DNA of 64,000 nt from Phycicoccus sp. M110.8 (GTDB lineage: Bacteria > Actinomycetota > Actinomycetes > Actinomycetales > Dermatophilaceae): assembly GCF_032464895.1 (NCBI RefSeq), contig NZ_JAWDIC010000001.1, positions 1,984,001 to 2,048,000 on the forward strand, read 5' to 3'. A program made the position numbers and the translations under genes. The notes below the pieces were generated by a model. It worked only from the letters and a program-made list of their open reading frames with translations. It was not told where the DNA came from and did not search any database. Positions 1,909-61,033 of this stretch are shown piece by piece. How positions within the stretch are numbered: the stretch's first letter is position 1; each line of letters begins with the position of its first letter.

Positions 1909-2093
1909 GCGGCCAGCGTATGCCGTCGTGGACGCGTGACCACGAGAACGCGGCGGTGCCGCGGGACTTCACGGACATCACCGGCATACGGGCCTGTGGC
2001 TCTTGACCACAGGCATCCGCAGGAGGACCGTCGCGAACGAGCCCAAGCGCGCGGCGGGCAGCCGGGGGGCCGTGGCCGCTGCGGCGGGGCGGG

Positions 2094-2133
2094 GTGTGCC
2101 GGGTGGTCTTCGTGGTACGACCACCCGGCACAC
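2094..2133 (-). terminator. Terminator of nrdAB
   Basis: A perfect 15-bp inverted repeat (2094-2108 with 2119-2133) around a 10-base loop begins 25 bases after the nrdB stop codon on the minus strand. There is no T-run, which is usual for actinobacterial terminators. Confidence 0.8.
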
Positions 2134-2158
2134 GACCTGTGCACAGCTCGTCGTCGGC

Positions 2159-3208
2159 TCAGAAGTCGTCGTCGAAGCCGACCTGGCCGGTCACGCCCAC
2201 CTGGTAGGCCGAGACCCTGCGCTCGAAGAAGTTCGACAGCTCCTGCACGTCCTGCAGCTCCATGAACGCCAGCGGGTTCCTCGCCCCGTACTCCGGCTCG
2301 AGACCGAGCTGCGCCAGGCGCCGGTCGGCGACCGACTCCAGGTAGGTGCGCATGTCCGTCGTGGAGAGCCCGGCGACCCCGCCACCGAGGAGGTCCTCGG
2401 CGAACTGCGCCTCGGCGTCGACGGCCTCGCGCAGCATGGCCCGCACCTGCGCCGCCATCTCGTCGTCGAACAGGTCCGGCTCCTCGGCGCGCACCGTCTC
2501 GACCACGTCGAACGCGAACGCCATGTGCATCGACTCGTCCCGGAACACCCAGTTGGTGCCCGACGCCAGGCCGTTGAGCAGCCCGCGCGAGCGCAGGAAG
2601 TACACGTACGCGAACGCGCCGTAGAAGAACAGGCCCTCGATGCAGGCGGCGAAGCAGATCAGGTTGAGCAGGAACGCCTTGCGGTGCTCGCGCGTCTCGA
2701 GCCGGTCGAGCTCGAACACCGAGTCGATCCAGCGGAAGCAGAAGTCGGCCTTGTGCTTGATCGAGGGGATGGTGTCGACCGCCGCGAACGCCTCCGCCCG
2801 CTCCCTCTCGTCGGGCACGTAGGTGTCGAGCAGCGTCAGGTAGAACTGCACGTGCACCGCCTCCTCGAACAGCTGCCGGCTCAGGTACAGCCGGCCTTCG
2901 GGGGAGTTGACGTGCTGGTAGAGGTTGAGCACGAGGTTGTTGGCCACGATGGTGTCGCCGGTCGCGAAGAAGGCGACGAGGCGGGAGACCAGGTGGCGCT
3001 CGGCGTCGGTGAGCCGTTTCAGGTCCTTGAGGTCGGAGTGCAGGTCGACCTCCTCGACCGTCCACGTGTTCTTGATGGCGTCGCGGTACCGCTCGTAGAA
3101 GTGCGGGTACCGCATCGGCCGCAGGGTGAGGTTCATGCCCGGGTCGAGCAGCATCCGGGTGCTCGTGTGGTCACTGGCGGTGGTGGTGGTGGTCTGGTCG
3201 ACGGTCAC
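2159..3208 (-). CDS. nrdB: Ribonucleoside-diphosphate reductase, beta subunit
   Basis: The 349-residue small subunit holds the diiron-tyrosyl radical that starts NDP reduction in NrdA. The E-E-x-x-H-x-x-x-Y pattern (EEAVHVQFY) gives two iron ligands and the radical tyrosine four residues after the histidine, as in class Ia enzymes. The later ligands are seen in CIEGLFF and RDESMH. The GTG start overlaps the nrdA stop codon as GTGA, so the two subunits are probably translationally coupled. The N-terminal 20 residues are Thr-rich and likely disordered; an alternative start would be the Met that opens MLLDPGMN. The protein ends in acidic FDDDF; the C-terminal tail normally docks on the large subunit. 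Confidence 0.95.
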   Translation of the reverse strand: MTVDQTTTTTASDHTSTRMLLDPGMNLTLRPMRYPHFYERYRDAIKNTWTVEEVDLHSDLKDLKRLTDAERHLVSRLVAFFATGDTIVANNLVLNLYQHVNSPEGRLYLSRQLFEEAVHVQFYLTLLDTYVPDERERAEAFAAVDTIPSIKHKADFCFRWIDSVFELDRLETREHRKAFLLNLICFAACIEGLFFYGAFAYVYFLRSRGLLNGLASGTNWVFRDESMHMAFAFDVVETVRAEEPDLFDDEMAAQVRAMLREAVDAEAQFAEDLLGGGVAGLSTTDMRTYLESVADRRLAQLGLEPEYGARNPLAFMELQDVQELSNFFERRVSAYQVGVTGQVGFDDDF

Positions 3209-5658
3209 TGGCAGGCCTCGCAGCTCTCGGGGTTCTCCAGGGAGCACGCGATGGCCTCCTGGTCGGTCGGGGTCAGGGTGGGCTGTGCCGCGGCGGACGT
3301 CGCGGTGGTCGGGTTGGGCACCCTCGCGGCGACGGAGACCGTCGCCTGCTGGATCCGCGTCGCGGGTCGTGAGCGCAGGTAGTACGTCGTCTTCAGCCCG
3401 GCCTTCCACGCGTACAGGTACATCGAGCTGAGCTTCCCGATGGTGGGCGCGGCGAGGAACAGGTTGAGCGACTGGCTCTGGTCGACGTACGGCTGGCGGG
3501 CCGCGGCGAGGTCGATCAGCGCCCGCTGCGGCAGCTCCCACGCGGTGCGGAACAGCAGCCGCACGTCCTCGGGCAGGTCCAGCACCCCCTGCACCGAGCC
3601 CTCGCTGCGCTTGACGGCCTCGCGCACCTCGGGCGTCCAGAGCCCGCGGTCCTTGAGCTCGCGCACCAGGGCGGTGTTGACCTGGAGGAACTCGCCCGAG
3701 AGCGTCTCCCGCTTGAACAGGTTCGACACCTGCGGCTCGATGCACTCGTAGCAGCCGGCGATCGAGGCGATCGTCGCCGTGGGGGCGATCGCCACGAGCA
3801 GGCTGTTGCGCAGCCCGTGGTCGGCGACGGCCGCGCGCAGCGCGCCCCACCGCTCGGTCTGGGTCGGCGTCACCCCCCAGAGGTCCGGCTGGAGGTCGCC
3901 GCGGGCCGCCCGCGTCTGCCCGTATGCCGGGTGCGCGCCGTGCTCGGCCGCGAGCTCGGCGGAGCGCTCCAGGGCCGAGAGGTAGACCTCCTCGGCGATG
4001 CGGGTCGACAGCTCACGCGCCTCGTCGGAGTCGAACGGCAGCCGGAGGGCGAAGAAGACGTCCTGCAGCCCCATCATCCCCAGCCCGACCGGGCGCCAGC
4101 GCGGGTTCGAGGCGGCCGACTCGGTGCTCGGGTAGTAGTTCACGTCGATGACCCGGTCGAGGTAGGTCACCGCGGTGCGGACCGTGGATCGCAGTGCGCC
4201 CCAGTCGATCCCGTCACGTGCGGCGGTGAGGTGCCGGGCCAGGTTGACCGAGCCGAGGTTGCAGACGGCGGTCTCGCCGTCGCTGCTGACCTCGATGATC
4301 TCGGTGCACAGGTTGGACAGGTGCACGACGGGGGAGCCCGGGCCCTGCTCGTCCGAGGTCTGGTTGCAGGTGCGGTTGCTGGCGTCCTTGAAGGTCATCC
4401 AGCCGTTCCCGGTCTGCGCCAGCGTCCGCATCATCTTCCCGTAGAGCTCGCGCGCGCTCACGGTGCGCACGACGCGGCCCTCGCGCTCCGCCGCGGCATA
4501 CGCCCGCTCGAAGGCGGGACCCCACAGGTCGGGCAGCTCGGGCACCTCGCTGGGGTCGATGAGCGACCACTGCTCGTCGGCCTCGACCCGGCGCATGAAC
4601 TCGTCGGGGACCCAGTTGGCGAGGTTGAGGTTGTGCGTGCGCCGGGCGTCCTCGCCGGTGTTGTCGCGCAGCTCGAGGAACTCCTCCACGTCGGGGTGCC
4701 ACGGCTCGAGGTAGACGCAGGCGGCGCCCTTGCGCCGGCCGCCCTGGTTGACGGCGGCGACCGAGGAGTCGAGCGTGCGCAGCCACGGGACGATGCCGTT
4801 GGAGTGGCCGTTCGTGCCGCGGATCAGGGCGCCGCGGCCGCGGACCCGCGACCACGAGATGCCGATGCCGCCGGCGAACTTCGACAGCTTGGCAACCTGT
4901 GCGTAGCGTTCGTAGATCGAGTCGAGCTCGTCGCGCGGGCTGTCGACGAGGTAGCACGACGACATCTGCGTGTGCCGGGTGCCCGAGTTGAAGAGGGTCG
5001 GCGAGCTCGGCAGGTAGGCCAGGCTCGACATCAGCCGGTAGAAGTCGATCGCCTCCTGCGGGGTGTGCGCGAGGCCGCAGGCGACCCGCAGCAGCCAGTA
5101 CTGCGGGGTCTCGATGACGTCGCGGGTCTGCGGGTGGCGCAGCAGGTAGCGGTCGTAGACGGTGCGCAGGCCGAAGTACTCGAACCGCCGGTCGGCGGAC
5201 GGGTCGACGGCGTGGTCGAGCTTGCGCGCGTTCGCCTCGACGAAGGCGGCGGTCTCGTCGCCGACCAGCCCCTCGAGGTGGCCGAGCCGCACCGCCTGGC
5301 TGAACGACGCGACCTGCGCGCCGCGCACCTCCTTGTCGATGTAGTTCGACAGCAGCCGGGCCGCGAGCCGGGAGTACTCCGGCTCGGTGGCGGTCATCTC
5401 GGCCGCCGTCTGGATCGACAGCCGGTCGAGCTCGGCCGTCGTCGCGCCGTCGTAGAGCCCGCTGATCGTGCGGGTGGCGACCGTCATGGGGTCGACCTCG
5501 GGGAGGTCGTCGCACCAGCGCTCGACGGCGCGGACGATCTTCATGACGTCGACGGGTTCGGCGTCGCCGTTGCGCTTGCGCACCTGCATGGTGCTGCGGC
5601 GCGGCGTGGTTTCGGTGGTCTCCGGGGCGCCGGGCGCCCGGTCCTCGACCTGGGTCAT
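3205..5658 (-). CDS. nrdA: Ribonucleoside-diphosphate reductase, alpha subunit (class Ia)
   Basis: This 817-residue catalytic subunit reduces ribonucleotides to deoxyribonucleotides. An ATP-cone-type allosteric domain opens the protein after a short tail (MQVRKRNGDAEPVDV). The active-site set is present: SSCYL (redox cysteine), NLCTEI (thiyl-radical cysteine with Asn and Glu), AVCNLGSVNL (second redox cysteine) and the C-terminal shuttle pair in ESCEACQ. The ATP cone and the CxxC tail favour class Ia NrdA over NrdE. I place the start at the ATG at 5658 because a strong GAGGAGAG ribosome site lies just upstream. The frame is open further upstream, but that part overlaps the leader region of the riboswitch. 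Expression should be limited by the cobalamin riboswitch and NrdR boxes upstream. Confidence 0.95.
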   Translation of the reverse strand: MTQVEDRAPGAPETTETTPRRSTMQVRKRNGDAEPVDVMKIVRAVERWCDDLPEVDPMTVATRTISGLYDGATTAELDRLSIQTAAEMTATEPEYSRLAARLLSNYIDKEVRGAQVASFSQAVRLGHLEGLVGDETAAFVEANARKLDHAVDPSADRRFEYFGLRTVYDRYLLRHPQTRDVIETPQYWLLRVACGLAHTPQEAIDFYRLMSSLAYLPSSPTLFNSGTRHTQMSSCYLVDSPRDELDSIYERYAQVAKLSKFAGGIGISWSRVRGRGALIRGTNGHSNGIVPWLRTLDSSVAAVNQGGRRKGAACVYLEPWHPDVEEFLELRDNTGEDARRTHNLNLANWVPDEFMRRVEADEQWSLIDPSEVPELPDLWGPAFERAYAAAEREGRVVRTVSARELYGKMMRTLAQTGNGWMTFKDASNRTCNQTSDEQGPGSPVVHLSNLCTEIIEVSSDGETAVCNLGSVNLARHLTAARDGIDWGALRSTVRTAVTYLDRVIDVNYYPSTESAASNPRWRPVGLGMMGLQDVFFALRLPFDSDEARELSTRIAEEVYLSALERSAELAAEHGAHPAYGQTRAARGDLQPDLWGVTPTQTERWGALRAAVADHGLRNSLLVAIAPTATIASIAGCYECIEPQVSNLFKRETLSGEFLQVNTALVRELKDRGLWTPEVREAVKRSEGSVQGVLDLPEDVRLLFRTAWELPQRALIDLAAARQPYVDQSQSLNLFLAAPTIGKLSSMYLYAWKAGLKTTYYLRSRPATRIQQATVSVAARVPNPTTATSAAAQPTLTPTDQEAIACSLENPESCEACQ

Positions 5659-5798
5659 CTGCTCTCTCCTCGCGAGCTGTTCCGGAGGAGCCGGGCCACG
5701 CGGGGAGGGGACGACGACACGGGGGCGCGTCCCCGGCATACCGCTGCCGCGCACGTCGCACCGCTGTCGCTGGACCCGCCCTCGAGGCCACGACTCCA

Positions 5799-6147: not shown

Positions 6148-7290
6148 GTGTCCGCGACCGGCCCCGACCGGCGGGCGCGGTCGCCGCTGCCCGCCTCCCG
6201 TGGCGCGCGGTGGCTGCGCGAGGGGGAGGCCGTCGCCGCCGCGCTGCTGGCGATCGCCCTGCTCGCCTTCGGCCTGCCGCGCGTGGCGGGCGTGGGCTGG
6301 GACCAGGTCGGTGCGGTGCTGGCCCAGCTGACCGTGGCCGAGGTCGGGCTGCTCACCGCCGTGTGGCTCGCCGGGCTCGCCGTGCAGACGGTGGCGCTCT
6401 CGGCCGCCCTGCCCGGCCTGAGCCACCGGCGGGCGTTCTTCCTCAACATCACCGGCAGCGCGGTGTCGAACCTCCTGCCGCTGGGGGGCGCGGCCGGGTC
6501 GGCCGTCAACTACTGGGCCGTGCGGGCCTGGGGCTTCGGGACCGCCGCGTTCCTGCGGTGGGCCCTGCTCACGAACATCTGGGACGTGCTGGGCCGGCTC
6601 GCGGTCCCGGCCCTGGCGCTCGGCTGGTTCCTCGCCTCGGGCACGCACTCCGAGGCGCTCACCACCGCGGGCCTGGGTGCCTGCGCCACCCTGCTGGCGC
6701 TGGTCGTGGTGACCGTGGTCGTGCTGCGCGAGCCCCGCCGCGTCGCGTGGCTGGGACGGGTGGTCGACCCCGTCGCGACCCTCCTGCGCCGCCTGCCCGC
6801 GCCGGGCACGTCCTACTCCGACCGCGTGGTGGCGGCCGTCGCGTCGGTCGCCGACCTCGTGCGGGTCGCGTGGGTGCGGCTGACGGTGGGCAAGCTCGCG
6901 TATGCCGTGATGCAGGCGGTGCTGCTCTGGCTCTGCCTCGACCTGCTCGGGGCGCGACCGCCGCTCGTGGTGGTGGCCGGGGCGTTCGCGGTGGAGCGGC
7001 TGCTGTCGCTGGCGGTCATCTCGCCGGCCGCGACCGGGATCGTCGAGCTGGGCATGACGGGGCTGCTCGTCGCCCTGGGCACCGCCCCTGCCCCTGCCGC
7101 GGCCGCCGTCCTGCTCTACCGCCTGTTCGTGATCGGCATGGAGGTCCCGGTCGGCGGGGCGCTGCTGGGCTGGTGGCTGCTGCGCCGGCTGCGGGACCGC
7201 GCGCGGGCTCGCCGGGCGACGGGGCCCGCCGTCGACCCCGGGCCCAAGGGCCCTAGGACGCCCACGGCGACGGCGCGACGGTCGAGGTGA
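6148..7290 (+). CDS. LPG synthase TM-type integral membrane protein
   Basis: This 380-residue membrane protein with about eight hydrophobic segments resembles the lysylphosphatidylglycerol synthase transmembrane/flippase family (UPF0104). Family-type features are the SNLLPLGGAAGSAVNYW segment (about residues 111-127) and the repeated small-residue helices. The catalytic aminoacyl-transferase domain of MprF is absent, so it is the flippase-like part alone. I chose the GTG at 6148 as start; no good ribosome site is visible and an upstream start cannot be excluded. It is divergent from nrdA, and DUF4389 and lipoprotein genes follow closely, so the three are likely one envelope-related transcription unit. 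Confidence 0.75.
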   Translation: MSATGPDRRARSPLPASRGARWLREGEAVAAALLAIALLAFGLPRVAGVGWDQVGAVLAQLTVAEVGLLTAVWLAGLAVQTVALSAALPGLSHRRAFFLNITGSAVSNLLPLGGAAGSAVNYWAVRAWGFGTAAFLRWALLTNIWDVLGRLAVPALALGWFLASGTHSEALTTAGLGACATLLALVVVTVVVLREPRRVAWLGRVVDPVATLLRRLPAPGTSYSDRVVAAVASVADLVRVAWVRLTVGKLAYAVMQAVLLWLCLDLLGARPPLVVVAGAFAVERLLSLAVISPAATGIVELGMTGLLVALGTAPAPAAAAVLLYRLFVIGMEVPVGGALLGWWLLRRLRDRARARRATGPAVDPGPKGPRTPTATARRSR

Positions 7291-7306: not shown

Positions 7307-8923
7307 ATGGCTGCGTTCCCGACCGCACCGGCGGCGCCCGCACCGCGCCCGGTCGCCTACCCCGTCCACCTCGACGCCGACACGAGCCCGCACGCCTCCC
7401 GCTGGCTGTGGCTGGTGAAGTGGCTGCTGGCGATCCCCCACGTCATCGTCCTGGCGTTCCTCTGGGCGGCGTTCGCCGTGCTGAGCATCGTGGCGTTCTT
7501 CGCGATCCTCATCACGGGCGAGTACCCGCGGGCCCTGTTCGACTTCAACGCCGGGGTGCTGCGGTGGAGCTGGCGTGTGGCGTACTGGTCCTACGGCGCC
7601 CTCGGCACCGACCGCTACCCGCCGTTCACGCTCGCCGAGGTGCCGGACTACCCGGCCCACCTCGAGATCGACTACCCGGAGCACCTCTCGCGGGGCCTCG
7701 TGCTCGTGAAGTGGTGGCTGCTCGCCATCCCGCACTACGTCGTGGTCGCGGTCCTCGTGGGGTCGGGCTCGTACGCCGTGCACACGGCCGACCGCTGGCG
7801 GACGGTCGGCGCACAGACCGGGCTCATCGGTGTGCTCGCACTCGTCGCCGGAGTCGCGCTCGCCGTGACCGGGCGGTACCCGCAGGCCCTCTACGACCTG
7901 CTGCTCGGGCTCAACCGCTGGGTGATCCGGGTCGCCGCCTACGTCGGCCTCATGACCGACGCCTACCCCCCGTTCCGCCTCGACCAGGGTCCGCACGAGC
8001 CGTTCGCCATGGCCTTCGCCGCAGGGGGCGCGCCCGCGCCCACCGCCGGTGGTCCGGCGACCGGGTCGGTCGTCCCCTCGGGGTCCGGGGTTGGGGCAGG
8101 GCCGGCGCCCGGGGCGGGAACCGGCCCCGCGCAGCCGGGCGTCGCGGGTGGCGGACCGGGTGGGACCTACCCGCCCGCGCCGGCAGGGCCGCCGTCCGGA
8201 CCCGTCGGTCCCGCCGCCCCGCGCACCGGGTGGGTCGCGGGACGGGTCGTCGGGGTGGTGGCCGGGTCCGTCGCGGTCCTGGTGTCGCTCGGCATGCTCA
8301 CCGGTGGGCTGGCCCTCGTCGTCGCCGACAACGCCGCGCGCCAGGACGGCCTGGTCACCGTGGTCGACCGCACCGTCCGCTCGGCGGGGTATGCCGTCGT
8401 CACCCCGTCGGCCGTGGTGGACAGCAGGTCCGACGGGACCGACTGGGCCGCCAGGGTGGTCGGAGACGTGCGCATCCGGGTGACGCCGCAGTCCGCCGGC
8501 CAGTCGGTGTTCGTCGGCATCGGGCCGACGGCCGACGTCGACCGCTACCTGGCCGGGGTGGCGCGCACCCAGGTGGCCACGCGGTCCTCCGGCGACCGTG
8601 ACCTGGCCGGGGTCGCCCCGGCGACGACGCCGACCGCGGCCCCGTTCTGGGTCGCCCGGGCGCAGGGCACCGGCACGGTCGACCTGCGGTGGCGTCCCAC
8701 CAGCGGCGACTGGTCCGTCGTCGTCATGAACTCCGACGCCTCCGCCGGGGTCTCCGCCGCCGTGCTGGCGGGCGCCGAGCTCCCGTGGCTCGGCACGGTC
8801 GGCGTGGTGCTGCTCGTCCTGGGTGTGCTGCTGCTCGTCGCCGGGGCGGTCCTCGTCGTGGTGATGGTCCAGCGCGCCTCGGTGCGGCACCCCGGCCCAC
8901 CCGTCCAGGCGGCCACGCCGTGA
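7307..8923 (+). CDS. DUF4389 membrane protein
   Basis: A 538-residue membrane protein with two tandem DUF4389 units. Each unit has a WxWLVKWLLAIPHV or VLVKWWLLAIPHY helix followed by a YPxxLFDF or YPQALYDL stretch (about residues 25-100 and 125-225). A long Gly/Pro/Ala-rich spacer (about 240-310) precedes a C-terminal region with a helix near 320, an extracytoplasmic-type domain and a last helix near 500. A perfect AGGAGGT ribosome site lies seven bases before the ATG. It starts 16 bases after the previous gene and its stop overlaps the next start as GTGA. The function of DUF4389 is unknown. Confidence 0.85.
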   Translation: MAAFPTAPAAPAPRPVAYPVHLDADTSPHASRWLWLVKWLLAIPHVIVLAFLWAAFAVLSIVAFFAILITGEYPRALFDFNAGVLRWSWRVAYWSYGALGTDRYPPFTLAEVPDYPAHLEIDYPEHLSRGLVLVKWWLLAIPHYVVVAVLVGSGSYAVHTADRWRTVGAQTGLIGVLALVAGVALAVTGRYPQALYDLLLGLNRWVIRVAAYVGLMTDAYPPFRLDQGPHEPFAMAFAAGGAPAPTAGGPATGSVVPSGSGVGAGPAPGAGTGPAQPGVAGGGPGGTYPPAPAGPPSGPVGPAAPRTGWVAGRVVGVVAGSVAVLVSLGMLTGGLALVVADNAARQDGLVTVVDRTVRSAGYAVVTPSAVVDSRSDGTDWAARVVGDVRIRVTPQSAGQSVFVGIGPTADVDRYLAGVARTQVATRSSGDRDLAGVAPATTPTAAPFWVARAQGTGTVDLRWRPTSGDWSVVVMNSDASAGVSAAVLAGAELPWLGTVGVVLLVLGVLLLVAGAVLVVVMVQRASVRHPGPPVQAATP

Positions 8924-11047: not shown

Positions 11048-12097
11048 CTAGTGCGCGCGGTCGTCCGTGTGCACCCGCTGACCGCGACCAGTCCGGCGTT
11101 CGGCCGGCGGCGGACCGCCGCCGGGGCCTGCGCCGACCGCGGCGGCGAACCGGGCCGACCAGTCGGCGAGCTCGGCCCGCACCTCCGGGGTGGCCTCCTC
11201 GATCGTGAACGGCGCGCCGATCACCCCGAGGCCGAAGATCGCCCACCGCGGCTCGAGCGCCTCCATCTCGATGCGGCACGAGTGCTCGTCCACCGGGGTA
11301 AGCGAGGCCCACGGCCCGGTCCGCGGCTCGACCTGGGCGGCGGGGGCGTGCACCAGCACGCGTACGGTCGTGCGGACCTCGTTGCGGGACAGGCCGTTGC
11401 GCACGTATGCCGCGGCGTCGCCGCCGGGCACCTCCCGCGGGCGGAACCGCGCCCGCGTGCCCTCGGGCTCGCTCAGCCGGTCCATCCGGAAGGAGCGCCA
11501 GTCCTGCCGGTCGAGGTCGTAGCCGAGCAGGTACCACCGGCGCCCGACGGTGACCAGCCGGTGCGGCTCGACGTGCCGCCGCAGGTCCGAGCCGGCCGCC
11601 TGGCCACCCCGGGCCCGGTAGGTGAACCGGAGCCGCTCGGTGTCGCGTGTCGCCTGGGCGACGACCGCGAGCACGTCGGCGCGCACCGTCGGTGCCTGGG
11701 AGAACGGCGAGTCGTCCGTGACGGCGCGCAGCGCCTCCGCCCGGCGCCGGAGCCTCGGTGGCAGGACCTGGACCACCTTCGACAGGGCGCTGACCGACGC
11801 CTCCGACAGCGTGCCGCTGGTGAGCTGCGCGGCACCGTTGAGCGCGACCACCATGGCGATCGCCTCGTCCTCCTCGACGGTCAGCGGCGGCATGGCGGCT
11901 CCGGCGCCGAGCTGGTAGCCGCCCTCGACGCCGCGCACCGAGTCGACGGGGTAGCCGAGCTCGCGCAGCCGCTCGATGTCCCGGCGCAGGGTGCGCTCGG
12001 ACACCTCGAGCCGGCCCGCCAGCTCCCCGCCGGGCCAGAACCGGTGGGTCTGCAGCAGCGACAGCAGCCGGAGGGTGCGCGAGCTCGTGTTGGCCAT
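11048..12097 (-). CDS. WYL-domain transcriptional regulator
   Basis: A 349-residue DeoR-like regulator: an N-terminal winged helix (RTLRLLSLLQ, then SERTLRRDIERLRELGYPVDSVRGVEGGYQLG, about residues 7-55), then a WYL ligand-sensing domain (about 130-300, with the signature tyrosines in RRWYLLGYDLD) and a WCX-type C-terminus. The Met at 12097 gives a normal N-terminus; another in-frame ATG lies at 12118. There is no clear ribosome site. It is divergent from a DHA2 efflux gene and very probably controls that gene. Confidence 0.88.
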   Translation of the reverse strand: MANTSSRTLRLLSLLQTHRFWPGGELAGRLEVSERTLRRDIERLRELGYPVDSVRGVEGGYQLGAGAAMPPLTVEEDEAIAMVVALNGAAQLTSGTLSEASVSALSKVVQVLPPRLRRRAEALRAVTDDSPFSQAPTVRADVLAVVAQATRDTERLRFTYRARGGQAAGSDLRRHVEPHRLVTVGRRWYLLGYDLDRQDWRSFRMDRLSEPEGTRARFRPREVPGGDAAAYVRNGLSRNEVRTTVRVLVHAPAAQVEPRTGPWASLTPVDEHSCRIEMEALEPRWAIFGLGVIGAPFTIEEATPEVRAELADWSARFAAAVGAGPGGGPPPAERRTGRGQRVHTDDRAH

Positions 12098-12198: not shown

Positions 12199-13764
12199 AT
12201 GAGCACCACGCTGGACACCGACCTCCCGGCCCCGGTCCCCGCGGCCGCCCCACCTGTCCCGCCCGACGAGGCGGGCGCGGCGCCGACGGCCTCCGCCCGC
12301 GCCCGCGGCCCCCTGCCGGTCGGCCGGGCCCGCACCATCGCCCTGCTCAGCCTGTTCCTGGCCTCGACGATGGAGCTGCTCGACACGACCATCGTCAACG
12401 TCGCCCTGCCGACCATCGAGTCCGGGCTGCGCGCCACCGACACGCAGCTGCAGTGGATGGCCGCGGCATACCCGCTCGCCTTCGCCCTCGCCCTCATCAC
12501 CGGCTCGCGGCTGGGGGACCTGCTCGGTCGCAAGCGGGTCTTCGTCGCCGGGCTCGTCGGATTCACGGCCACCTCGGCCGCCTGCGGCCTGGCCCCCACC
12601 GCCGAGGCGCTCGTCGCCTTCCGGGCGGTGCAGGGCGTCGCGGCCGCGGCGATGATCCCGCAGGTGCTCTCCAGCCTGCAGGTGATGTACCGGCCGCACG
12701 AGCGGGCCCGGGCGATGGGCATGTTCACCGGGCTCGCCGGCCTGTCGGCGGTGCTCGGCCCCGTCATCGGCGCCGTGCTCACCCAGGCGGACGTGGCCGG
12801 ACTGGGCTGGCGCGCGATCTTCCTCGTCAACGTCCCCTTCGGGCTGGCCGCGGTCGCGGCGGCCCTGCGCTGGGTGCCCGAGTCGGTCGCCGAGCGGCGC
12901 CCGCGGATCGACCTGCGCGGGGTCGTGGTGCTGGCGCTCGGGCTGCTGGGCGTGCTCTACCCGCTCACGCTCGGGCGCGAGCTCGGCTGGCCCGCCTGGG
13001 TGTATGCCGCGATGGCGGCCGGCGTGGCCGTCCTCGTCCTGTTCGGCCGGGCCCAGTGGCGGGCCGAGCGGGCGGGCCGCGAGCCGCTGGTGGCGACGAG
13101 CCTGTACCGCGGCCGCGGGTTCGCCGCAGGGTCGACGATGAACGCCCTGCTCTTCGCCTCGATGTCGTCGTACTTCCTGTGCCAGACCGTCTACCTGCAG
13201 GCAGGGCTCGGCTGGTCGGTGCTGCGGGCCGGGCTCGCCGGAGTGCCGTTCGCGCTGACCACCACGGTGTTCGCCGGGGTCGGCGTCGCGGTCCTCGCGC
13301 CGCGGATCGGCCGACGGGTGCTGCAGATCGGGGCCCTGACCTGGGCTGCCGGCGCCGTGCTCATCGGCGTGGCCGTGCACGGGGCGGACGCCTCGACGTC
13401 GCTGTGGGCGTTCCTGCCGGGGTTCGTCGTCGCGGGTGCCGGGTTCGGCCTCATGGTGTCGCCCATCGGGGTGTTCACGCTGGCCGACGTGCCGGTCGAC
13501 AAGGCCGGGTCGGCGTCCGGGCTGTTCAGCACCACCGGGCAGCTCGCAGGGGCGACCGGGGTGGCGGCCGTGGGGTCGCTGTTCTTCTCCGTGGCGCAGG
13601 CGCACGCGTCGTCCTCGCCGGTCGAGGTCTTCCGGCCCGCGGTCGAGGCGTCGCTGGCAGTGCTGGTCGGGCTCATGCTCGTGGCCGCCCTCGTCGCCCG
13701 CGCGCTACCCCGCCACCCCCTGGTCACGGCCGAGGCGGCCGGCGTCGTGGCGGACGCCGACTGA
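12199..13764 (+). CDS. MFS drug efflux transporter, DHA2 family
   Basis: A 521-residue proton-coupled exporter with about 14 membrane helices. The first helix pair carries DTTIVNVALPTI, the DHA2 motif; motif A is GSRLGDLLGRKRVF (about residues 101-114), and the antiporter motif C region is GLSAVLGPVIGAVL. The N-terminal 40 residues are Pro/Ala-rich and cytoplasmic. A GGAGA ribosome site precedes the ATG. Likely substrates are hydrophobic toxic compounds or antibiotics, but the sequence does not say which. The divergent WYL regulator and the operator in the gap suggest inducible expression. Confidence 0.88.
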   Translation: MSTTLDTDLPAPVPAAAPPVPPDEAGAAPTASARARGPLPVGRARTIALLSLFLASTMELLDTTIVNVALPTIESGLRATDTQLQWMAAAYPLAFALALITGSRLGDLLGRKRVFVAGLVGFTATSAACGLAPTAEALVAFRAVQGVAAAAMIPQVLSSLQVMYRPHERARAMGMFTGLAGLSAVLGPVIGAVLTQADVAGLGWRAIFLVNVPFGLAAVAAALRWVPESVAERRPRIDLRGVVVLALGLLGVLYPLTLGRELGWPAWVYAAMAAGVAVLVLFGRAQWRAERAGREPLVATSLYRGRGFAAGSTMNALLFASMSSYFLCQTVYLQAGLGWSVLRAGLAGVPFALTTTVFAGVGVAVLAPRIGRRVLQIGALTWAAGAVLIGVAVHGADASTSLWAFLPGFVVAGAGFGLMVSPIGVFTLADVPVDKAGSASGLFSTTGQLAGATGVAAVGSLFFSVAQAHASSSPVEVFRPAVEASLAVLVGLMLVAALVARALPRHPLVTAEAAGVVADAD

Positions 13765-13815: not shown

Positions 13816-14262
13816 TCAGCGGGGTGCGTCCTGCCGGCCGCGCGCAGGGGCGCCGGCCCGCGCGAGCTCGTGCACCCGTCGCGCGGCGGCCACGACCAGC
13901 GCCACGGCCAGCGGCAGCTCGACGAGCACCGCGCTGAGCACGGAGCCGAGGCGGTCACTCGCGTTGGCGGTGGTCACGTCGAACCACGCGTCGGCGCCCA
14001 GCATCCCGGCGGCCGCCACCGCAGCGAGCGCGAACTCGGGCCGGCGGCGCAGGCCCAGCCACGCGGTGGCCGCGAGCAGCGCCGCGACGAGGACGTCGAA
14101 CCCGACCCACGCCAGGCTCCACGTCGACACGGTGTAGCGGGTGGGCAGCGAGACGCCCAGGTATGCCGCCCACGGGACCAGGGCGGCCGCGGCGAGGAGC
14201 AGGAGCAGCCGCCGGAGGCGCGTCGGGCGCTCGTGGTTCCGCAGGTCATGGATGACGCTCAT
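13816..14262 (-). CDS. Four-helix membrane protein of unknown function
   Basis: A 148-residue protein with a short basic cytoplasmic start (MSVIHDLRNHERPTRLRR) and four hydrophobic helices. I chose the ATG at 14262 because a GAGGAGG ribosome site lies just upstream. The build recalls the two- and four-helix membrane proteins often found alone in actinobacteria. No catalytic motif is visible. The 140 bases upstream, to the gene ending at 14403, show no other feature. Confidence 0.7.
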   Translation of the reverse strand: MSVIHDLRNHERPTRLRRLLLLLAAAALVPWAAYLGVSLPTRYTVSTWSLAWVGFDVLVAALLAATAWLGLRRRPEFALAAVAAAGMLGADAWFDVTTANASDRLGSVLSAVLVELPLAVALVVAAARRVHELARAGAPARGRQDAPR

Positions 14263-49475: not shown

Positions 49476-49512
49476 GGTATGCCGCGCGGCCAGGGCGCGC
49501 ACGCGGCATACC
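49476..49512 (-). terminator. Hairpin made of two inverted GTATGCCG copies
   Basis: GGTATGCCGCG (49476-49486) and its exact reverse complement (49502-49512) form an 11-bp stem with a 15-base loop. It starts 35 bases after the DUF779 gene stop on the minus strand, a terminator position. Confidence 0.75.
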
Positions 49513-51551: not shown

Positions 51552-51572
51552 ACCGGTGGTGGCGTATGCCGG

Positions 51573-53811: not shown

Positions 53812-53878
53812 CGAGACACCCTATGCGTGCCGTCCCGCGCGCGCCTTCGATGACCGCGCCGGGTATGCCGTCCCGCAC

Positions 53879-53891: not shown

Positions 53892-55475
53892 GTGACCGAC
53901 ACTGCGGCGGGGAAGTCCGAGTCGTCCACCCAGCTCGACGAGATCCGGGCCGGGTACGCCTTCGAGGGAGGGGCGCTGCTGTTCGGGGCGGCCGTCGTCG
54001 ACGGCACCGCCCACCCGGACGCACCGGTGAAGATCCCCCTCTCGACGCTCAACCGGCACGGCCTCGTGGCGGGCGCGACCGGCACGGGCAAGACGAAGAC
54101 GCTGCAGCTCATGGCCGAGCAGCTCTCGGGCCAGGGCGTCCCGGTGTTCCTCGCGGACATCAAGGGCGACCTCTCCGGCATGGCGACCGCCGGCACCAGC
54201 AACGACCGCATCACGAGCCGGGCAGCCGACGTCGGGCAGCAGTGGGTCGGCACGGCATACCCCACCGAGTTCCTCTCCCTGGGAGGGATCGGCAAGGGCA
54301 TCCCGATCCGCGCCACGATCACGTCGTTCGGTCCGACGCTGCTCTCGAAGGTGTTGGGGCTCAACGACACCCAGGAGTCCAGCCTGGGCCTGGTCTTCCA
54401 CTACGCCGACAAGAACGGGCTCGCGCTGCTCGACGTCAAGGACCTGCGCGAGGTCGTCTCGTTCCTCACCTCCGACGAGGGCAAGGCCGACCTCAAGGAG
54501 CTCGGCGGACTGTCGTCGGCCACCGCGGGCGTCATCCTGCGCGAGCTCGTCGCGTTCTCGGACCAGGGCGCCGACGCCTTCTTCGGCGAGCCCGAGTTCG
54601 ACACCAGGGACCTGCTGCGCACCGCGGCCGACGGCAAGGGCCTGGTCACCTGCCTGGAGCTGCCGGCCGTGCAGGACCGGCCCGCCCTGTTCTCGACGTT
54701 CCTCATGTGGCTGCTGGCCGACCTGTTCCACGACCTGCCCGAGATCGGTGACGCCGACAAGCCGAAGCTCGTCTTCTTCTTCGACGAGGCGCACCTGCTC
54801 TTCCAGGACGCGAGCAAGGCCTTCCTCACAGCGATCGAGCAGACGGTGCGGCTCATCCGGTCCAAGGGGGTGGGCGTCTTCTTCGTGACCCAGAGCCCCA
54901 AGGACGTGCCGAGCGGGGTGCTGGCGCAGCTCGGCAACCGCGTCCAGCACGCCCTGCGCGCCTACACGCCCGAGGACGCCAAGGCACTCAAGGCGGCCGT
55001 GTCGACCTACCCGCACAGCGCCTACGACCTCGAGGAGCTGCTCACCTCGCTCGGCACTGGCGAGGCCGTCGTGACGGTGCTGTCGGAGCGGGGTGCCCCC
55101 ACGCCGGTCGCGTGGACGCGCATGATCGCGCCGCAGTCGCTGATGGCGCCCTCGGACGACGCGACGGTCGACGCCCTCGTCGCCGCGTCGCCCCTCGCGG
55201 CCAAGTACGCCACGGCGGTCGACCGCGAGTCGGCGTACGAGAAGCTCCGCGCGCGGCTGGAGCAGGCGCCCGCCGCCCCCGCTGCTCCCGCGCCCCAGTC
55301 GGCGCCGGCGCCGGCGCCCGCGCCGCGCGCCCCGAAGCCGGCGAAGGAGGAGCCGGGGATGGTCGAGCAGGTGGTCAGGTCCCAGGCGTTCCGGTCGATG
55401 ATGCGCTCGGCCGGCACGGTGATCGGCCGCGAGATCACCCGGTCCCTTTTCGGGACCGCACGCCGCTCGCGCTGA
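53892..55475 (+). CDS. HerA-like ATPase (DUF853)
   Basis: A 527-residue P-loop ATPase of the FtsK/HerA superfamily. Walker A is GATGTGKT (61-68), Walker B is KLVFFFDEAHLLF (about 290-302), and the GVFFVTQSPKDVP sensor region follows. The C-terminal part is Ala/Pro-rich (about 465-490), then a basic helix (QAFRSMMRSAGTVIGREITRSLFG). Such proteins are widespread, and a role in DNA translocation or repair is assumed. Frame and promoter support the GTG at 53892; the open frame upstream would overlap the divergent gene. Confidence 0.88.
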   Translation: MTDTAAGKSESSTQLDEIRAGYAFEGGALLFGAAVVDGTAHPDAPVKIPLSTLNRHGLVAGATGTGKTKTLQLMAEQLSGQGVPVFLADIKGDLSGMATAGTSNDRITSRAADVGQQWVGTAYPTEFLSLGGIGKGIPIRATITSFGPTLLSKVLGLNDTQESSLGLVFHYADKNGLALLDVKDLREVVSFLTSDEGKADLKELGGLSSATAGVILRELVAFSDQGADAFFGEPEFDTRDLLRTAADGKGLVTCLELPAVQDRPALFSTFLMWLLADLFHDLPEIGDADKPKLVFFFDEAHLLFQDASKAFLTAIEQTVRLIRSKGVGVFFVTQSPKDVPSGVLAQLGNRVQHALRAYTPEDAKALKAAVSTYPHSAYDLEELLTSLGTGEAVVTVLSERGAPTPVAWTRMIAPQSLMAPSDDATVDALVAASPLAAKYATAVDRESAYEKLRARLEQAPAAPAAPAPQSAPAPAPAPRAPKPAKEEPGMVEQVVRSQAFRSMMRSAGTVIGREITRSLFGTARRSR

Positions 55476-56841: not shown

Positions 56842-58179
56842 GTGCGGCTCACCATCCTCGGCGGCGGCGGGTTCCGCGTGCCCCTGGTGCACGGCGCCCT
56901 GCTGGCCGACCCCGAGCACCGTGTGGACGAGCTGCGCCTGCACGACCCGGACGCCGGGCGCCTCGCCGCCGTCGTCGCGGTGCTGCAGCAGCAGGCGGCC
57001 GGTGCGACGCGGCCGCCGCGCCTGGTCGTCGCGCCGACGCTCGACGACGCCCTGGGTGGCACCGACGTCGTCTTCTCGGCGATGCGCGTCGGTGGCGTGC
57101 GCGGACGCACGGTGGACGAGCGGGCAGCCCTGGACCTCGGGCTGCTCGGCCAGGAGACGACGGGTGCCGGCGGCGTGGCATACGCCCTGCGCAGCGTCCC
57201 GGTGTCGCTGGAGGTGGCGCGCCGCGTGGCCGCGGTCGCCCCGCAGGCCTGGGTCATCAACTTCACCAACCCCGCCGGGGTGGTCACCGAGGCCATGCAG
57301 ACCGTGCTGGGGGACCGGGTCGTCGGCATCTGCGACTCGCCGGTCGCGCTGGCGCGCAGGGCGATGCGCGTGCTGGGGCTCGAGCCCGCGGAGACGACCG
57401 TCCACTACGTCGGGCTCAACCACCTGGGCTGGCTGCGAGGGCTGCACTCGGGCGGCACCGACCACCTGCCACGGCTGCTCGCCGACGAGCGGCTCCTGGC
57501 CCGCACCGAGGAGGGGCGGCTGTTCGGGGCGCCGTGGCTGCAGGCCCTGGGTGCCATCCCGAACGAGTACCTCTTCTACTACTACTTCACCCGGGAGGCG
57601 ACCGCGTCCGTCCGCGCGGCGGGGCGGACCCGGGGGGAGTTCCTGCGGGAGCAGCAGGAGGCGTTCTACGCCGAGGTGGCCCGCTCGCCCGACACCGCCC
57701 TGGAGACCTGGCGGCGCGTGCGTGCCGAGCGCGACGCGACCTACCTGCAGGAGGCGCGCGCCGAGGGCGAGGCGCGCGACGAGCTCGACCTCGACGGCGG
57801 CGGGTACGAAGGGGTCGCGCTGGCGCTCATGGGAGCCCTGGGTGGTGGCGCGCCGGCCGAGCTGGTCCTCGACGTGCGCTCGGCCGGTGCGGTGCCCGGT
57901 ATGCCGCACGACGCCGTCGTCGAGGTGCCGTGCACCGTCGATGCCGGTGGCCCCCGTCCCCACCCGGTCGCCGAGCCGGAGGGGCACATGCTGGGGCTGA
58001 TGCAGTCGGTGAAGGCGGTCGACCGCCTGGTTCTCGAGGCCGTCCTCGCGCGCTCGGAGGCGGCGGCGCTCAAGGCCTTCGCGCTGCACCCGCTGGTCGA
58101 CTCGGTGACCTCGGCGCGGGCCCTGCTCGACGCGCACCTGGCGCAGGCGCCGGAGATCGCAGCCCTGTTCCGCCGCTGA
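56842..58179 (+). CDS. GH4-family 6-phospho-glycosidase
   Basis: A 445-residue NAD- and Mn-dependent glycosidase. The dinucleotide site is GGGGFRVP (7-14), NFTNPAG (140-146) is a family mark, and metal ligands are C164 (GICDSP) and H194 (GLNHLGW). Family members with this pattern act mainly on 6-phospho-beta-glucosides by a redox-elimination mechanism. No PTS gene is nearby, so the phosphorylated substrate may come from the divergent PfkB kinase or from an unlinked PTS. Confidence 0.88.
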   Translation: MRLTILGGGGFRVPLVHGALLADPEHRVDELRLHDPDAGRLAAVVAVLQQQAAGATRPPRLVVAPTLDDALGGTDVVFSAMRVGGVRGRTVDERAALDLGLLGQETTGAGGVAYALRSVPVSLEVARRVAAVAPQAWVINFTNPAGVVTEAMQTVLGDRVVGICDSPVALARRAMRVLGLEPAETTVHYVGLNHLGWLRGLHSGGTDHLPRLLADERLLARTEEGRLFGAPWLQALGAIPNEYLFYYYFTREATASVRAAGRTRGEFLREQQEAFYAEVARSPDTALETWRRVRAERDATYLQEARAEGEARDELDLDGGGYEGVALALMGALGGGAPAELVLDVRSAGAVPGMPHDAVVEVPCTVDAGGPRPHPVAEPEGHMLGLMQSVKAVDRLVLEAVLARSEAAALKAFALHPLVDSVTSARALLDAHLAQAPEIAALFRR

Positions 58180-58194: not shown

Positions 58195-59118
58195 CTAACC
58201 CAGCCAGGCGGCCACGAGCAGGATCACCGGCACCGCGCCCACCGTCGTGACGAGGATGGTGTCGCGCGCCAGCACGGTGGCCCGCTGGTACCGCGTGGCG
58301 TGGACGAAGATGTTCTGCGCCGTCGGCAGGGCGGAGGTGACGACGATCGCCAGCAGCGCGTGCCCCGACACCCCCAGCAGCACGTCGGCGACGAACCACG
58401 CGACGAGCGGCTGCACCAGCATCTTCAGCGTCGAGGTCGTCACCAGCTCGGCCACCGATCCCGTGCGACCCAGCCCCGGACCGAGCCGCAGGGCGATGCC
58501 GTACGCCACGAGCATGCTCGGCACCGCCATCGCCCCGAGCAGCGCGAGCGGGTCGGACACGGCGGCCGGCAGCGTCCACCCCGTGACCGACAGCAGCAGC
58601 CCGACCAGGGAGCCGACGGTGAGCGGGTTGCGCAGGGGCCGCAGGGCCAGCTGCCACCAGCGCAGCTCGCGGCCGCGGGCGTCGGCGTCGAGGAAGCCGA
58701 GCGCGAGCGGCTGCAGCACCAGCAGCTGCAGCAGCAGGGTGGGCGCCACGAACGCGGCGTCACCGAGGACGTAGCTCGCGACCGGGATGCCCAGGTTCCC
58801 GGCATTGACGTATGCCGAGGACAGCGCGCCGATCGTGGTGTCCCCCAACGGCCGCCGCCACACCAGCCGCGCCGGCACCACGTAGAGCGCCACGGCCACG
58901 GCGATGCCGGCGAGCGAGGCAAGCAGGTTCGCCGACAGCACCTGGTGCACGTCGGCCCGGCCGAGGGTGCCGACCATGAGGGCGGGGCTGGCGACGAAGA
59001 AGGCGAGGCGCGACAGCACCTGCTGGGCGCCGGCGTCGACGATGCGCAGGTGGGCGAGCAGGGCACCGACGGCGATGACGACGGCGATGGTCGCGAACCC
59101 GGTGAGTACCCCCTGCAC
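58195..59118 (-). CDS. AEC-family transporter
   Basis: A 307-residue member of the auxin efflux carrier family with ten membrane helices in two five-helix repeats. Typical features are VNAGNLGIPVASYVLGD (about 104-120) and SALPTAQNIFVHATRY (about 265-280), each with an unwound N-x-G-type or P-T-A crossing. Bacterial members export or import organic acids such as malate or malonate. The GTG start is preceded by TAGCCT at seven bases. It follows the propionyl-CoA synthetase gene by ten bases and may handle a related acid. Confidence 0.87.
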   Translation of the reverse strand: MQGVLTGFATIAVVIAVGALLAHLRIVDAGAQQVLSRLAFFVASPALMVGTLGRADVHQVLSANLLASLAGIAVAVALYVVPARLVWRRPLGDTTIGALSSAYVNAGNLGIPVASYVLGDAAFVAPTLLLQLLVLQPLALGFLDADARGRELRWWQLALRPLRNPLTVGSLVGLLLSVTGWTLPAAVSDPLALLGAMAVPSMLVAYGIALRLGPGLGRTGSVAELVTTSTLKMLVQPLVAWFVADVLLGVSGHALLAIVVTSALPTAQNIFVHATRYQRATVLARDTILVTTVGAVPVILLVAAWLG

Positions 59119-59125
59119 GTCCGAC

Positions 59126-59131
59126 AGGCTA
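59126..59131 (-). promoter_or_regulatory. -10 box that contains the upstream gene's stop codon
   Basis: TAGCCT (59131-59126) lies seven bases before the AEC gene GTG, and its TAG is the stop codon of the propionyl-CoA synthetase gene. The AEC gene may thus have its own promoter at the end of that gene. Confidence 0.5.
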
Positions 59132-61033
59132 GGGCGGCGGCGCGAGGACGGGTGCGAGGGTCTCGAGGACCGAGGCGTCCTCGATCGTCCCCGGCACCTT
59201 CGCCGGCAGCCCGTCGGCCATCTCGCGCATCGTCTTGCGCAGGATCTTGCCGGAGCGCGTCTTGGGCAGGGCCGCGACGACGTCGACACGTTGCAGGGAC
59301 GCGATCGCGCCGACCTCGTCGCGGACCCGCTGCCGCAGCTCGGCCGCGACCGCGTCGGCCGAGCCCCGGTCGACACCCGCCTTGAGCACCACGAGCGCTC
59401 GCGGCACCTGCCCCTTGAGCTCGTCGTGCACGCCGATGACGGCGCACTCGGCGACGGCCGGGTGGCCGGCCAGGGCCGCCTCGATCGACCCGGTCGACAG
59501 CCGGTGGCCGGCGACGTTGAGCACGTCGTCGGTGCGGCCCATGACGAAGAGGTATCCGTCCTCGTCGAGGAAGCCGCCGTCACCGGTGAGGTAGTAGCCG
59601 TCGAACGCCGACAGGTAGCCGGCGACATAGCGGTCGTCGTCGCCCCACAGGGTGGGCAGCGTGCCCGGCGGCAGCGGCAGCCGGATGCAGATCGCGCCCT
59701 CCTCGCCCGCAGGCATGGGGCGACCCGCCTCGCCGAGGACCTCCACGGCATACCCCGGCACGGGCACGGTGGGGGAGCCGGGCTTGATCGGCATCGGTTC
59801 CAGGCCACGCAGGTTCGCCGCGATCGGCCAGCCGGTCTCGGTCTGCCACCAGTTGTCGACGACCGGAACACCGAGCCGCAGGGTCGCCCACTCCCACGTG
59901 TCGGGGTCGAGGCGCTCACCGGCGAGGAACACCGTCTCCAGCGTGGACAGGTCGTACCCGGCCATGAGCGCGCCCTCGGGGTCGTCCCGCTTGATGGCGC
60001 GGTAGGCGGTCGGCGCGGTGAACATGGCCTTGACGCCGTAGTCGGAGACGACCCGCCAGAACGCGCCCGCGTCGGGCGTGCCGACCGGCTTGCCCTCGTA
60101 GAGGACGGACGTCGCCCCGGTGAGCAGCGGCGCGTAGACGATGTAGGAGTGGCCGACGACCCACCCGACGTCGCTCGCGGTGAACCACGTGTCGCCCGGG
60201 TCGATGCCGAAGACGTTGGTCATCGACCACCGCAGCGCGACCGCGTGGCCGCCGTTGTCGCGCACGATGCCCTTGGGCCGGCCGGTGGTCCCCGACGTGT
60301 AGAGGATGTAGAGCGGGTCGGTGGCCTCGACGTCGACGCAGTCCGCCGGCTCGGCGTCGGAGACGAGCTCGGCCCAGTCCAGCTCCTCCCAGTCGGTGTC
60401 GCGCTCGCCGACGGCCGCCCGGGCCTGCTCGCGCTGGAGGACGACGACGGCCTGGGGCTTGTGGCTGCTGCGGTCGAGCGCGGCGTCGAGCAGCGGCTTG
60501 TACTCCACGACGCGGCTCGGCTCGATGCCGCAGCTGGCGGCGAGGACGACCACCGGCCGGGCGTCCTCGATCCGCGCGGCGAGCTCGGCCGGCGCGAACC
60601 CGCCGAACACCACCGAGTGCACCGCGCCGATGCGGGCGCACGCGAGCATGGCGACCACGGCCTCCGGCACCATCGGCATGTAGACGACGACCCGGTCGCC
60701 CTTCCCGACGCCGAGGCTCGCGAGCGCCCCGGCGAAGGTCGCCACCTCCTCGAGCAGGCCGGCATACGTGAGGGTGCGCCTCGTGCCGGTGACCGGGCTG
60801 TCGTAGTGGATCGCCGGCTGGTCGCCGCGCCCGTCGCGCACGTGCCGGTCGAGGGCGTTGAAGCAGGTGTTGAGCCGGCCACCGGCGAACCAGCGGTGGA
60901 ACGGCGGACGGTCGGAGTCGAGCACCCGCGCCGGCGGCGTCGACCACTCGACCGCCCGAGCCGCCTCGCCCCAGAAGCCGTCGGGGTCCTGCAGGCTGCG
61001 CTGGTATGCCGCGGAGTAGGCGCCGGTGCTCAT
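59129..61033 (-). CDS. prpE: Propionyl/acetyl-CoA synthetase (PrpE-like)
   Basis: A 634-residue AMP-forming short-chain acyl-CoA synthetase. Motifs: YTSGTTGRPKGI (245-256), DVGWVVGHSYIVYAPLLTGATSVLYEGKP, WWQTETGWP, GYYLTGDGGFLDEDGYLFVMGRTDDVLNVAGHRLSTGSIE and catalytic lysine in KTRSGKILRK near 598. The first residues (AAYQRSLQDPDGFW) and YDSPVTG favour PrpE over Acs. It makes propionyl-CoA (or acetyl-CoA) from the acid. No methylcitrate genes are adjacent. Confidence 0.88.
   Translation of the reverse strand: MSTGAYSAAYQRSLQDPDGFWGEAARAVEWSTPPARVLDSDRPPFHRWFAGGRLNTCFNALDRHVRDGRGDQPAIHYDSPVTGTRRTLTYAGLLEEVATFAGALASLGVGKGDRVVVYMPMVPEAVVAMLACARIGAVHSVVFGGFAPAELAARIEDARPVVVLAASCGIEPSRVVEYKPLLDAALDRSSHKPQAVVVLQREQARAAVGERDTDWEELDWAELVSDAEPADCVDVEATDPLYILYTSGTTGRPKGIVRDNGGHAVALRWSMTNVFGIDPGDTWFTASDVGWVVGHSYIVYAPLLTGATSVLYEGKPVGTPDAGAFWRVVSDYGVKAMFTAPTAYRAIKRDDPEGALMAGYDLSTLETVFLAGERLDPDTWEWATLRLGVPVVDNWWQTETGWPIAANLRGLEPMPIKPGSPTVPVPGYAVEVLGEAGRPMPAGEEGAICIRLPLPPGTLPTLWGDDDRYVAGYLSAFDGYYLTGDGGFLDEDGYLFVMGRTDDVLNVAGHRLSTGSIEAALAGHPAVAECAVIGVHDELKGQVPRALVVLKAGVDRGSADAVAAELRQRVRDEVGAIASLQRVDVVAALPKTRSGKILRKTMREMADGLPAKVPGTIEDASVLETLAPVLAPPP

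Follow-up and report, generated by a model that had tools for sequence, protein, structure and literature searches.

An iterated octamer with strand-separate spacing in the genomes of one actinobacterial family

Iterated words for which a reader is known, such as the DNA uptake sequence (DUS) of Neisseria and Chi of Escherichia coli, explain how self-DNA is recognized or how breaks are repaired; how these words originate and what determines the distance between their copies has been asked for a long time. Chi of E. coli is a polar signal read on one strand, and the FtsK-orienting polar sequences (KOPS), the architecture-imparting sequences (AIMS) and similar words are strand-biased along each replichore. 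Leading-strand polarity is given as a property and criterion of Chi in a study that also lists one-letter Chi variants in Proteobacteria (PMC8022716). Uptake in Haemophilus influenzae is reported to be unaffected by the position or orientation of the best site, in a paper that cites even spacing (PMC1939737); pairs of oppositely oriented uptake signal sequences (USS) are described in another (PMC7811141), and for the gonococcus a strand preference of single-stranded DUS is mentioned with reference to Duffin and Seifert (2012), double-stranded DNA being preferred (PMC12061091). The HIP1 word of cyanobacteria (highly iterated palindrome 1) is presented as linked to orphan methyltransferases (PMC4390886). 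Here we describe the octamer GTATGCCG, iterated in a stretch of 64,000 nucleotides from a soil actinobacterium (called the window throughout; G000 C1:1984001-2048000), in the rest of that genome and in its relatives. Its copies keep their distance from one another on each strand separately.

An exact octamer and its range

The initial annotation of the window had counted 44 exact copies of GTATGCCG (26 on the plus strand, 18 on the minus strand), and this count was confirmed, the copies running from 1918 to 61011. By chance about one would be expected, as 100 dinucleotide shuffles gave a mean of 0.99 and a maximum of 3, and a second-order Markov model 1.0. The whole genome, which we take to belong to the genus Pedococcus in the family Dermatophilaceae, has 2,476 copies (1,234 forward and 1,242 reverse; 4,117,279 bases in 7 contigs) against 135 (74 + 61) of the reversed word used as control. 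The enrichment thus holds in the rest of the genome, and the extrapolation to thousands of copies was correct. In a 464-kb sample of the same genome (the window and 20 sampled stretches of 20 kb) there were 286 copies where the second-order model expects 7.6, ca. 38 times as many, and this was the top z-score among all 8-mers. The 24 one-letter neighbours ranged from 0 to 3.2 times their expectation, the top one being GTATGCCA (9 vs. 2.8), and the flanks hold at most 0.31 bits of information per position, compared with 1.45–2.89 bits inside the word (673 sites). GTATGCCG is a sharp, exactly read 8-mer with no excess of near matches. No strand bias was found in the 20 sampled stretches (the summed chi-square including the window, 7.04 with 21 degrees of freedom, is below chance level). 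Two of these stretches, L043 (G000:C1:700001-720000) and L046 (1150001-1170000), have 5 and 6 copies for a mean of ca. 12 per 20 kb, and also a lower GC content (0.70); a sparse word is what might be expected for recently acquired DNA.

We called a genome dense when it had at least 100 copies per Mb and at least twice the count of the reversed control, thresholds of our own choosing. By this definition 37 of 60 family genomes (27 of 50 genera) are dense, 18 have fewer than 30 copies per Mb and 5 lie between; the densest, G017, carries 4,724 copies (ca. 1,125 per Mb). Among 38 genomes from 19 other families of the order none exceeded 64 per Mb, the top two having equally high control counts, and none of 296 genomes of the class (289 from other families) exceeded ca. 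52 per Mb. The clearest excess outside the Dermatophilaceae was found in G363 (family f41, genus g111), with 94 + 76 copies vs. 9 + 18 reversed in 3.8 Mb; G348 of the same genus has 19 + 25 vs. 2 + 4, and the other genomes of the genus show little. Phage TJE1 of Tetrasphaera jenkinsii carries 2 copies in 49 kb, too few to conclude from. Our literature search, which was not exhaustive, brought up no description of a comparable word from actinobacteria.

Twenty motif-poor genomes were sampled at 20 kb each, and two of them use another word, GGATGCCG in G036 and GTATGCGG in G030; in the remaining 18 no 7- or 8-mer reached a z-score of 10 in these 20 kb. Over 220 kb, G036 has 227 copies of GGATGCCG (18.9 expected) and 2 of GTATGCCG, and G030 has 65 copies of GTATGCGG (4.0 expected) and 21 of GTATGCCG (5.2 expected). 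Both words are one-letter dialects of GTATGCCG, in two motif-poor genera. Some of the dialect copies in G036 use different codons and encode different residues (Asp-Ala, Ala-Ser, Gly-Ile), and this argues against codon or amino-acid content as the cause.

Within genes, the word was said to be built from rare codons, and this is borne out, with 125 of 157 TAT codons falling inside GTATGCCG. Tyrosine is written as TAT in 125 of 157 cases in the context ..G-Tyr-Ala-G.. and in 32 of 2,457 in other contexts, and of the GCA codons that precede TAC, 88 follow a codon with G in its third position and one does not. Between genes the density of copies is 1.8-fold higher (52 of 286 in the 464-kb sample, of which 11% is non-coding). 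The intergenic excess that had been claimed for the window is therefore real, though not the exact figure of 11 copies, since with our own simple gene caller, from which the status of all window copies is taken, 13 of the 44 are intergenic.

Spacing of the two orientations

Copies of GTATGCCG in the same orientation avoid each other. The ratio of observed to expected same-orientation pairs was 0.09 below 50 bp, then 0.36, 0.43, 0.46 and 0.60 up to 1 kb, 0.75 and 0.82 up to 1.5 kb, and 0.99 beyond, whereas for pairs in opposite orientation it was 1.64 below 50 bp (36 vs. 22 expected) and 0.93–1.19 beyond, broadly similar whether the two copies face each other or face away. This set comprises 1,134 sites in 1.64 Mb and includes ten orthologous regions, so that its copies are not all independent; leaving these regions out gave the same result. 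At distances of 50–1,000 bp there were 194 same-orientation and 453 opposite-orientation pairs. Control words did not show the pattern in the pair correlation, though their counts are small. Orientation also tends to alternate between neighbouring copies: in the own genome 183 of 265 pairs do so (p 5e-10), as do 133 of 211 in 20 relatives (p 2e-4) and, over 400 contiguous kb of G001, 273 of 386 (p 2e-16). As the spacing depends on the strand, the site has a polarity and the two strands are served independently, over a range of about 1–1.5 kb and with about one copy per 2–3 kb of each strand. The initial annotation had stressed that the word shapes codon choice, ignores gene direction and has a density like that of uptake sequences. 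These points are supported for a highly iterated, functional-looking 8-mer throughout the genome, and its strand balance is also that of uptake sequences. Its use of the two orientations as an argument against Chi was only half right: the copies are indifferent to gene direction, but they do depend on orientation relative to one another.

The same rule appears at single codon choices. We considered as permissive all places in called genes where synonymous codons allow the word, and binned them by distance to the nearest copy in a given orientation (0–250, to 500, to 1000, to 1500, to 2500 bp, and more), leaving out of the bins those less than 1.5 kb from the end of a stretch. The word is written at 228 of 506 such places in the own genome and at 319 of 546 in G001. 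With increasing distance to the nearest same-orientation copy, occupancy rises from 0.12 through 0.17, 0.37, 0.45 and 0.56 to 0.66 in the own genome, and in G001 it runs 0.35, 0.43, 0.47, 0.70, 0.88 and 0.88 (logistic terms positive, p 1.3e-17 and 2.8e-24). With distance to the nearest opposite copy it stays at 0.43–0.51 up to 2.5 kb and is 0.26 beyond in the own genome, and in G001 it is 0.50–0.66, with 1 of 8 beyond 2.5 kb (terms weakly negative, p 5e-4 and 0.02). For a given protein sequence, the word is thus much less likely to be written where another copy lies on the same strand within ca. 1.5 kb. In the dialect genome G036, occupancy by GGATGCCG goes from 0.20 to 0.83 (p 3e-15; opposite copies, p 0.97), part of which is background, as the Gly-Ile frame is filled in 51 of 54 cases there and already in 41 of 99 in the own genome, where this word is not in use. 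For GTATGCGG in G030 the occupancy effect has p 4e-4, and the alternation (30 of 55 pairs) is not significant. A spacing rule that is visible in single codon choices makes the range and strand-dependence of the underlying process measurable from sequence.

An artefact of composition, codon pairs or amino-acid content can be regarded as effectively refuted by these data. It would account for the concentration of the coding copies in Tyr-Ala or Ala-Tyr frames (206 of 229). As the initial annotation had foreseen, it could also draw on higher-order Markov models, and the maximal-order model does return the window count (44.0 expected, 44 observed). It does so because enriched 7-mers within the motif carry that count, and with the second-order model the excess given above stands. 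Against an artefact there are the intergenic excess, the 24 neighbours with no comparable excess, and the relatives: G036 uses other codons and has GTATGCCG at 0 of 214 permissive positions, and 17 low genomes have it at 6 of 276.

As yardsticks we took 400 kb each of the gonococcus, with 378 copies of DUS, and of E. coli, with 89 copies of Chi. DUS sites repel each other mildly and regardless of orientation, with 129 same and 141 opposite pairs at 50–1,000 bp. Their alternation among neighbours at least 100 bp apart (149 of 277) is not significant, whereas the figures for GTATGCCG are 172 of 252 in the own genome and 253 of 360 in G001. Orientation shuffles did give evener same-strand gaps for DUS, which come from inverted pairs closer than 50 bp (84 opposite vs. 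1 same). Near matches of DUS number 135 vs. 50 expected. For Chi, 68 copies lie in the majority orientation of their 50-kb stretch and 21 in the other. Strand-separate spacing is a new fact in that neither of the two known signals measured, gonococcal DUS and E. coli Chi, shows it. Two Neisseria gonorrhoeae records of 2.17 Mb, NZ_CP119140.1 and NZ_CP119142.1, are evidently chromosomes filed as plasmids, and a 4.9 Mb Aeromonas caviae record likewise stands among plasmids.

The initial annotation had put forward a DNA uptake signal, and a classical one, read on double-stranded DNA as in Neisseria and Haemophilus, would fit the density, the strand balance, the intergenic excess, the close inverted pairs and the family-level dialects. 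In this classical form the proposal is not well supported and we consider it very unlikely, because the spacing of DUS ignores orientation in both pair counts and alternation, and because DUS has the near-match excess that is lacking here.

Copies in the window, conservation and loss

The intergenic copies of the window lie on the plus strand at 1918..1925, 25876..25883, 31412..31419, 46203..46210, 49477..49484 and 51564..51571, with two more, at 41804..41811 (kept in 7 of 10 aligned relatives) and 53863..53870, that are intergenic or at a gene start, and on the minus strand at 1982..1989, 5734..5741, 42929..42936, 48078..48085 and 49504..49511. The copies at 49477..49484 and 49504..49511 form an inverted pair with 19 bases between them, flanked by two minus-strand genes and capable of forming a hairpin. 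Convergent pairs closer than 50 bp show a ca. twofold excess across the sampled genomes, and in this they resemble DUS and USS, whose inverted pairs also serve as terminators.

The other copies are in coding sequences. They are written as TAT GCC at 6900..6907, 8389..8396 and 13002..13009 on the plus strand and at 4494..4501, 15292..15299, 59746..59753 and 60760..60767 on the minus strand, and in the GGT ATG CCG frame at 42672..42679 and 57899..57906 (both plus). Copies of opposite sense to their gene are found on the plus strand at 3922..3929 (as GCA TAC), 11405..11412, 14161..14168, 58810..58817 and 61004..61011, and on the minus strand at 12464..12471, 26524..26531, 32638..32645 and 54253..54260. 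Further coding copies lie on the plus strand at 23889..23896, 25779..25786 and 37814..37821 and on the minus strand at 21000..21007, 39715..39722 and 40129..40136. For the remaining ones we give the number of aligned relatives that keep them: on the plus strand those at 17073..17080 (kept in 8 of 9), 27051..27058 (8 of 10), 32963..32970 (9 of 10), 35055..35062 (9 of 10) and 36111..36118, which is present in 0 of 10, and on the minus strand those at 21864..21871 (3 of 3) and 36550..36557 (8 of 10).

These alignments cover 40-kb orthologous regions of ten relatives with 80–84% nucleotide identity, in which 24–31% of all 8-mers are kept as background (27% in G001). Window copies were kept in 11 of 13 cases in G001, 10 of 16 in G005, 9 of 15 in both G003 and G004, 9 of 17 in G008, 8 of 14 in G002, 6 of 14 in G007, 5 of 14 in G006, 6 of 21 in G010 and 3 of 15 in G051. 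Conservation is well above background in the denser genomes of the same genus, slight in G006 and absent in the sparse G010.

In a ComEC tree of 30 genomes the motif-bearing ones stand on both sides of the midpoint root, and at least 5 changes are forced. Fully supported sister pairs differ sharply, with 380 vs. 8 copies per Mb in G053 and G011 and 285 vs. 15 in G025 and G038. This patchy range, as expected of a dispensable exchange system, is best read as ancestral presence followed by repeated loss, a preferred reading in which the root and the direction of change are not proven. The ComEC of G004 appears as two matches in different frames (G004:C1:1517076-1517881), owing to a sequencing error or to recent damage; this genome still has 2,537 copies of GTATGCCG.

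Candidate readers and likeness to known systems

Methylation had been named as one of the candidate roles. Of three methyltransferase families, the own genome has a single PF00145 match, and G017, G044 and G055 carry GTATGCCG with no match to PF02384, PF01555 or PF00145 (completeness 98, 100, and 97%). Each family is absent from many motif-bearing genomes (52 genomes searched for each), and all three were rejected as a requirement, which leaves the usual kinds of methylation site unsupported. A strand-specific mark inside the cell (methylation, another modification or a nick site), by which old and new strands, or own and foreign DNA, are told apart, would agree with strand-separate spacing at ca. 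1 kb and would need an asymmetric site on each strand. In view of the three genomes that do without these families, other modification families not having been searched, we judge it improbable.

The RecC family (PF04257) has no match in the own genome and matches in 19 of the 60 family genomes. The word is borne by 6 of 16 genera with RecC and by 21 of 29 without it (Fisher p 0.03, uncorrected for kinship; five intermediate or dialect genera are excluded, and genus g1 is counted once as lacking RecC though its genome G001 has it). RecBCD was rejected as the reader, as RecC is missing from the own genome and is, if anything, commoner where the motif is not. A protein of the own genome matches solved UvrD-like helicase chains at E 1e-99 (entries 6ppj and 6ppr, presumably mycobacterial AdnAB). 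Matches to PF12705 were found in 55 of 55 genomes searched, and an AdnA-like protein of more than 600 residues in 47 of 50 loci (27 of 30 and 20 of 20, the AdnA reading being truncated in G016, G045 and G059). Sixteen of these genomes are motif-less, and the presence of AdnA was rejected as a discriminator. The AdnA match at G000:C3:151967 has a short single-domain PDDEXK nuclease 11 kb away (G000:C3:162942-163676). By eye, among the matches listed, such a second PDDEXK protein near adnA occurs mainly in genomes without RecC, and could be a substitute nuclease.

When all genomes were taken, 31 AdnA columns separated motif-bearing from motif-less genomes. With one own-genus genome kept (19 genomes) there were 14, where shuffling gave 3.9 on average (4 of 300 shuffles reached that number), and ComEC as control gave 3 vs. 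2.1 shuffled; for the nine genomes represented in both protein sets, the columns numbered 25 in AdnA and 21 in ComEC, no real difference. The 14 residues failed in a held-out set of 10 + 8 genomes (p 0.22), the motif-less G011 has all of them, and the apparent link was dropped.

AdnAB bears on a close rival, namely that GTATGCCG is a Chi-like signal for end resection by this or a similar helicase-nuclease, which we regard as possible but somewhat doubtful. An enzyme entering from one side would read one orientation, so that a two-ended break would need two independent sets. The word is a sharp non-palindromic octamer whose spacing depends on orientation, and selection by two-ended breaks would be expected to space the copies of each strand separately. 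The near-universal AdnA and PF12705 matches would supply the enzyme, one-letter variants of Chi are on record for Proteobacteria (PMC8022716), and RecC is commoner in genera lacking the word. On the other side, Chi in E. coli is polarised and shows no repulsion whereas GTATGCCG is unpolarised, AdnA is also present in motif-less genomes and its tracking residues did not hold up, and a function essential for repair would hardly be expected to be lost time and again.

Our tentative preference, held with somewhat less than even confidence, is for GTATGCCG as a strand-read self-DNA signal for uptake or recombination in genetic exchange. We infer reading of a single strand from the spacing, since to a reader of double-stranded DNA, as the DUS receptor is, either orientation would be redundant with the other. 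The word would be read on one strand while single strands of ca. 1–2 kb are handled during exchange. In natural transformation a fragment would enter as one of its two strands, each equally likely, and a strand with GTATGCCG may be favoured for import, protection or recombination; a second copy on that strand within the tract would add nothing, while one on the other strand would serve a different event. Such a bias in uptake or recombination could spread the word, with a change of reader leading to one-letter dialects and a loss of the system to erosion. Single strands of ca. one kilobase and of both polarities arise in transformation and also in the resection of two-ended breaks, and the polarity and exactness of the octamer fit Chi equally well. 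In favour of exchange are the dialects, the lack of replication polarity and the repeated loss of the word from genomes that retain the machinery. It is conceivable, though again we would not put this at even odds, that the word represents a new class of genome-wide signal, in which two orientations form independent self-spacing sets read on single strands, with genus dialects and repeated loss of the whole system in one family.

Several results weigh against a role in exchange or against reading of a single strand. DUS, a signal for uptake, is not spaced by strand once its close inverted pairs are set aside, and unlike GTATGCCG it has an excess of near matches. Chi showed no same-orientation repulsion (89 sites), and therefore single-strand reading need not yield such spacing. 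ComEC and TadE belong to the DNA-uptake machinery in other bacteria. The search for com and tad genes suggested in the initial annotation did find them, ComEC in 57 and TadE in 59 of the 60 family genomes, but equally in motif-less ones, and therefore nothing ties GTATGCCG to competence; ComEA likewise had a tblastn match in each of 30 loci, motif-bearing or not. The type IVa pilus marker PilM (PF11104) was matched in 2 of 60 family genomes and not in the own one, ComP itself not having been searched, and this pilus is probably not the reader. No reader was found among RecC, PilM, ComEC, TadE, AdnA and the three methyltransferase families. G051, a dense genome (562 per Mb) from a different genus, keeps few of the window sites, so that their places turn over between genera. 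When 19 other motif-bearing genomes of mixed density were pooled (20 kb each), the same-orientation occupancy term was not significant (p 0.086) and the opposite one was (p 0.005, nearer being fuller); the raw depletion of same-orientation pairs is nevertheless present in them.

Sister genera with and without the word, together with the two dialects, make the search for the reader gene straightforward. Among known systems, GTATGCCG is like DUS and USS in having about one copy per 1–1.7 kb, equally on both strands, in and between genes, and in being restricted to a family, with dialects and with inverted pairs between genes. It differs from DUS, as measured in one species, in being exact and in repelling its own orientation only, whereas DUS repels both mildly and has a near-match excess, and in its host, an actinobacterium with no PilM match. 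With Chi it shares a non-palindromic octamer, an orientation that matters (for GTATGCCG in its spacing only) and one-letter variants between lineages; unlike Chi it has no chromosome polarity but a strong self-repulsion, it has no RecC match in its own genome, and it is missing from relatives that keep AdnA. As with HIP1, it is a highly iterated octamer that is patchy between related genomes, but HIP1 is a palindrome, while GTATGCCG is asymmetric and can do without the three methyltransferase families that were searched. Like KOPS and AIMS it is an asymmetric octamer and, unlike them, it has no strand bias in the 20 sampled stretches.

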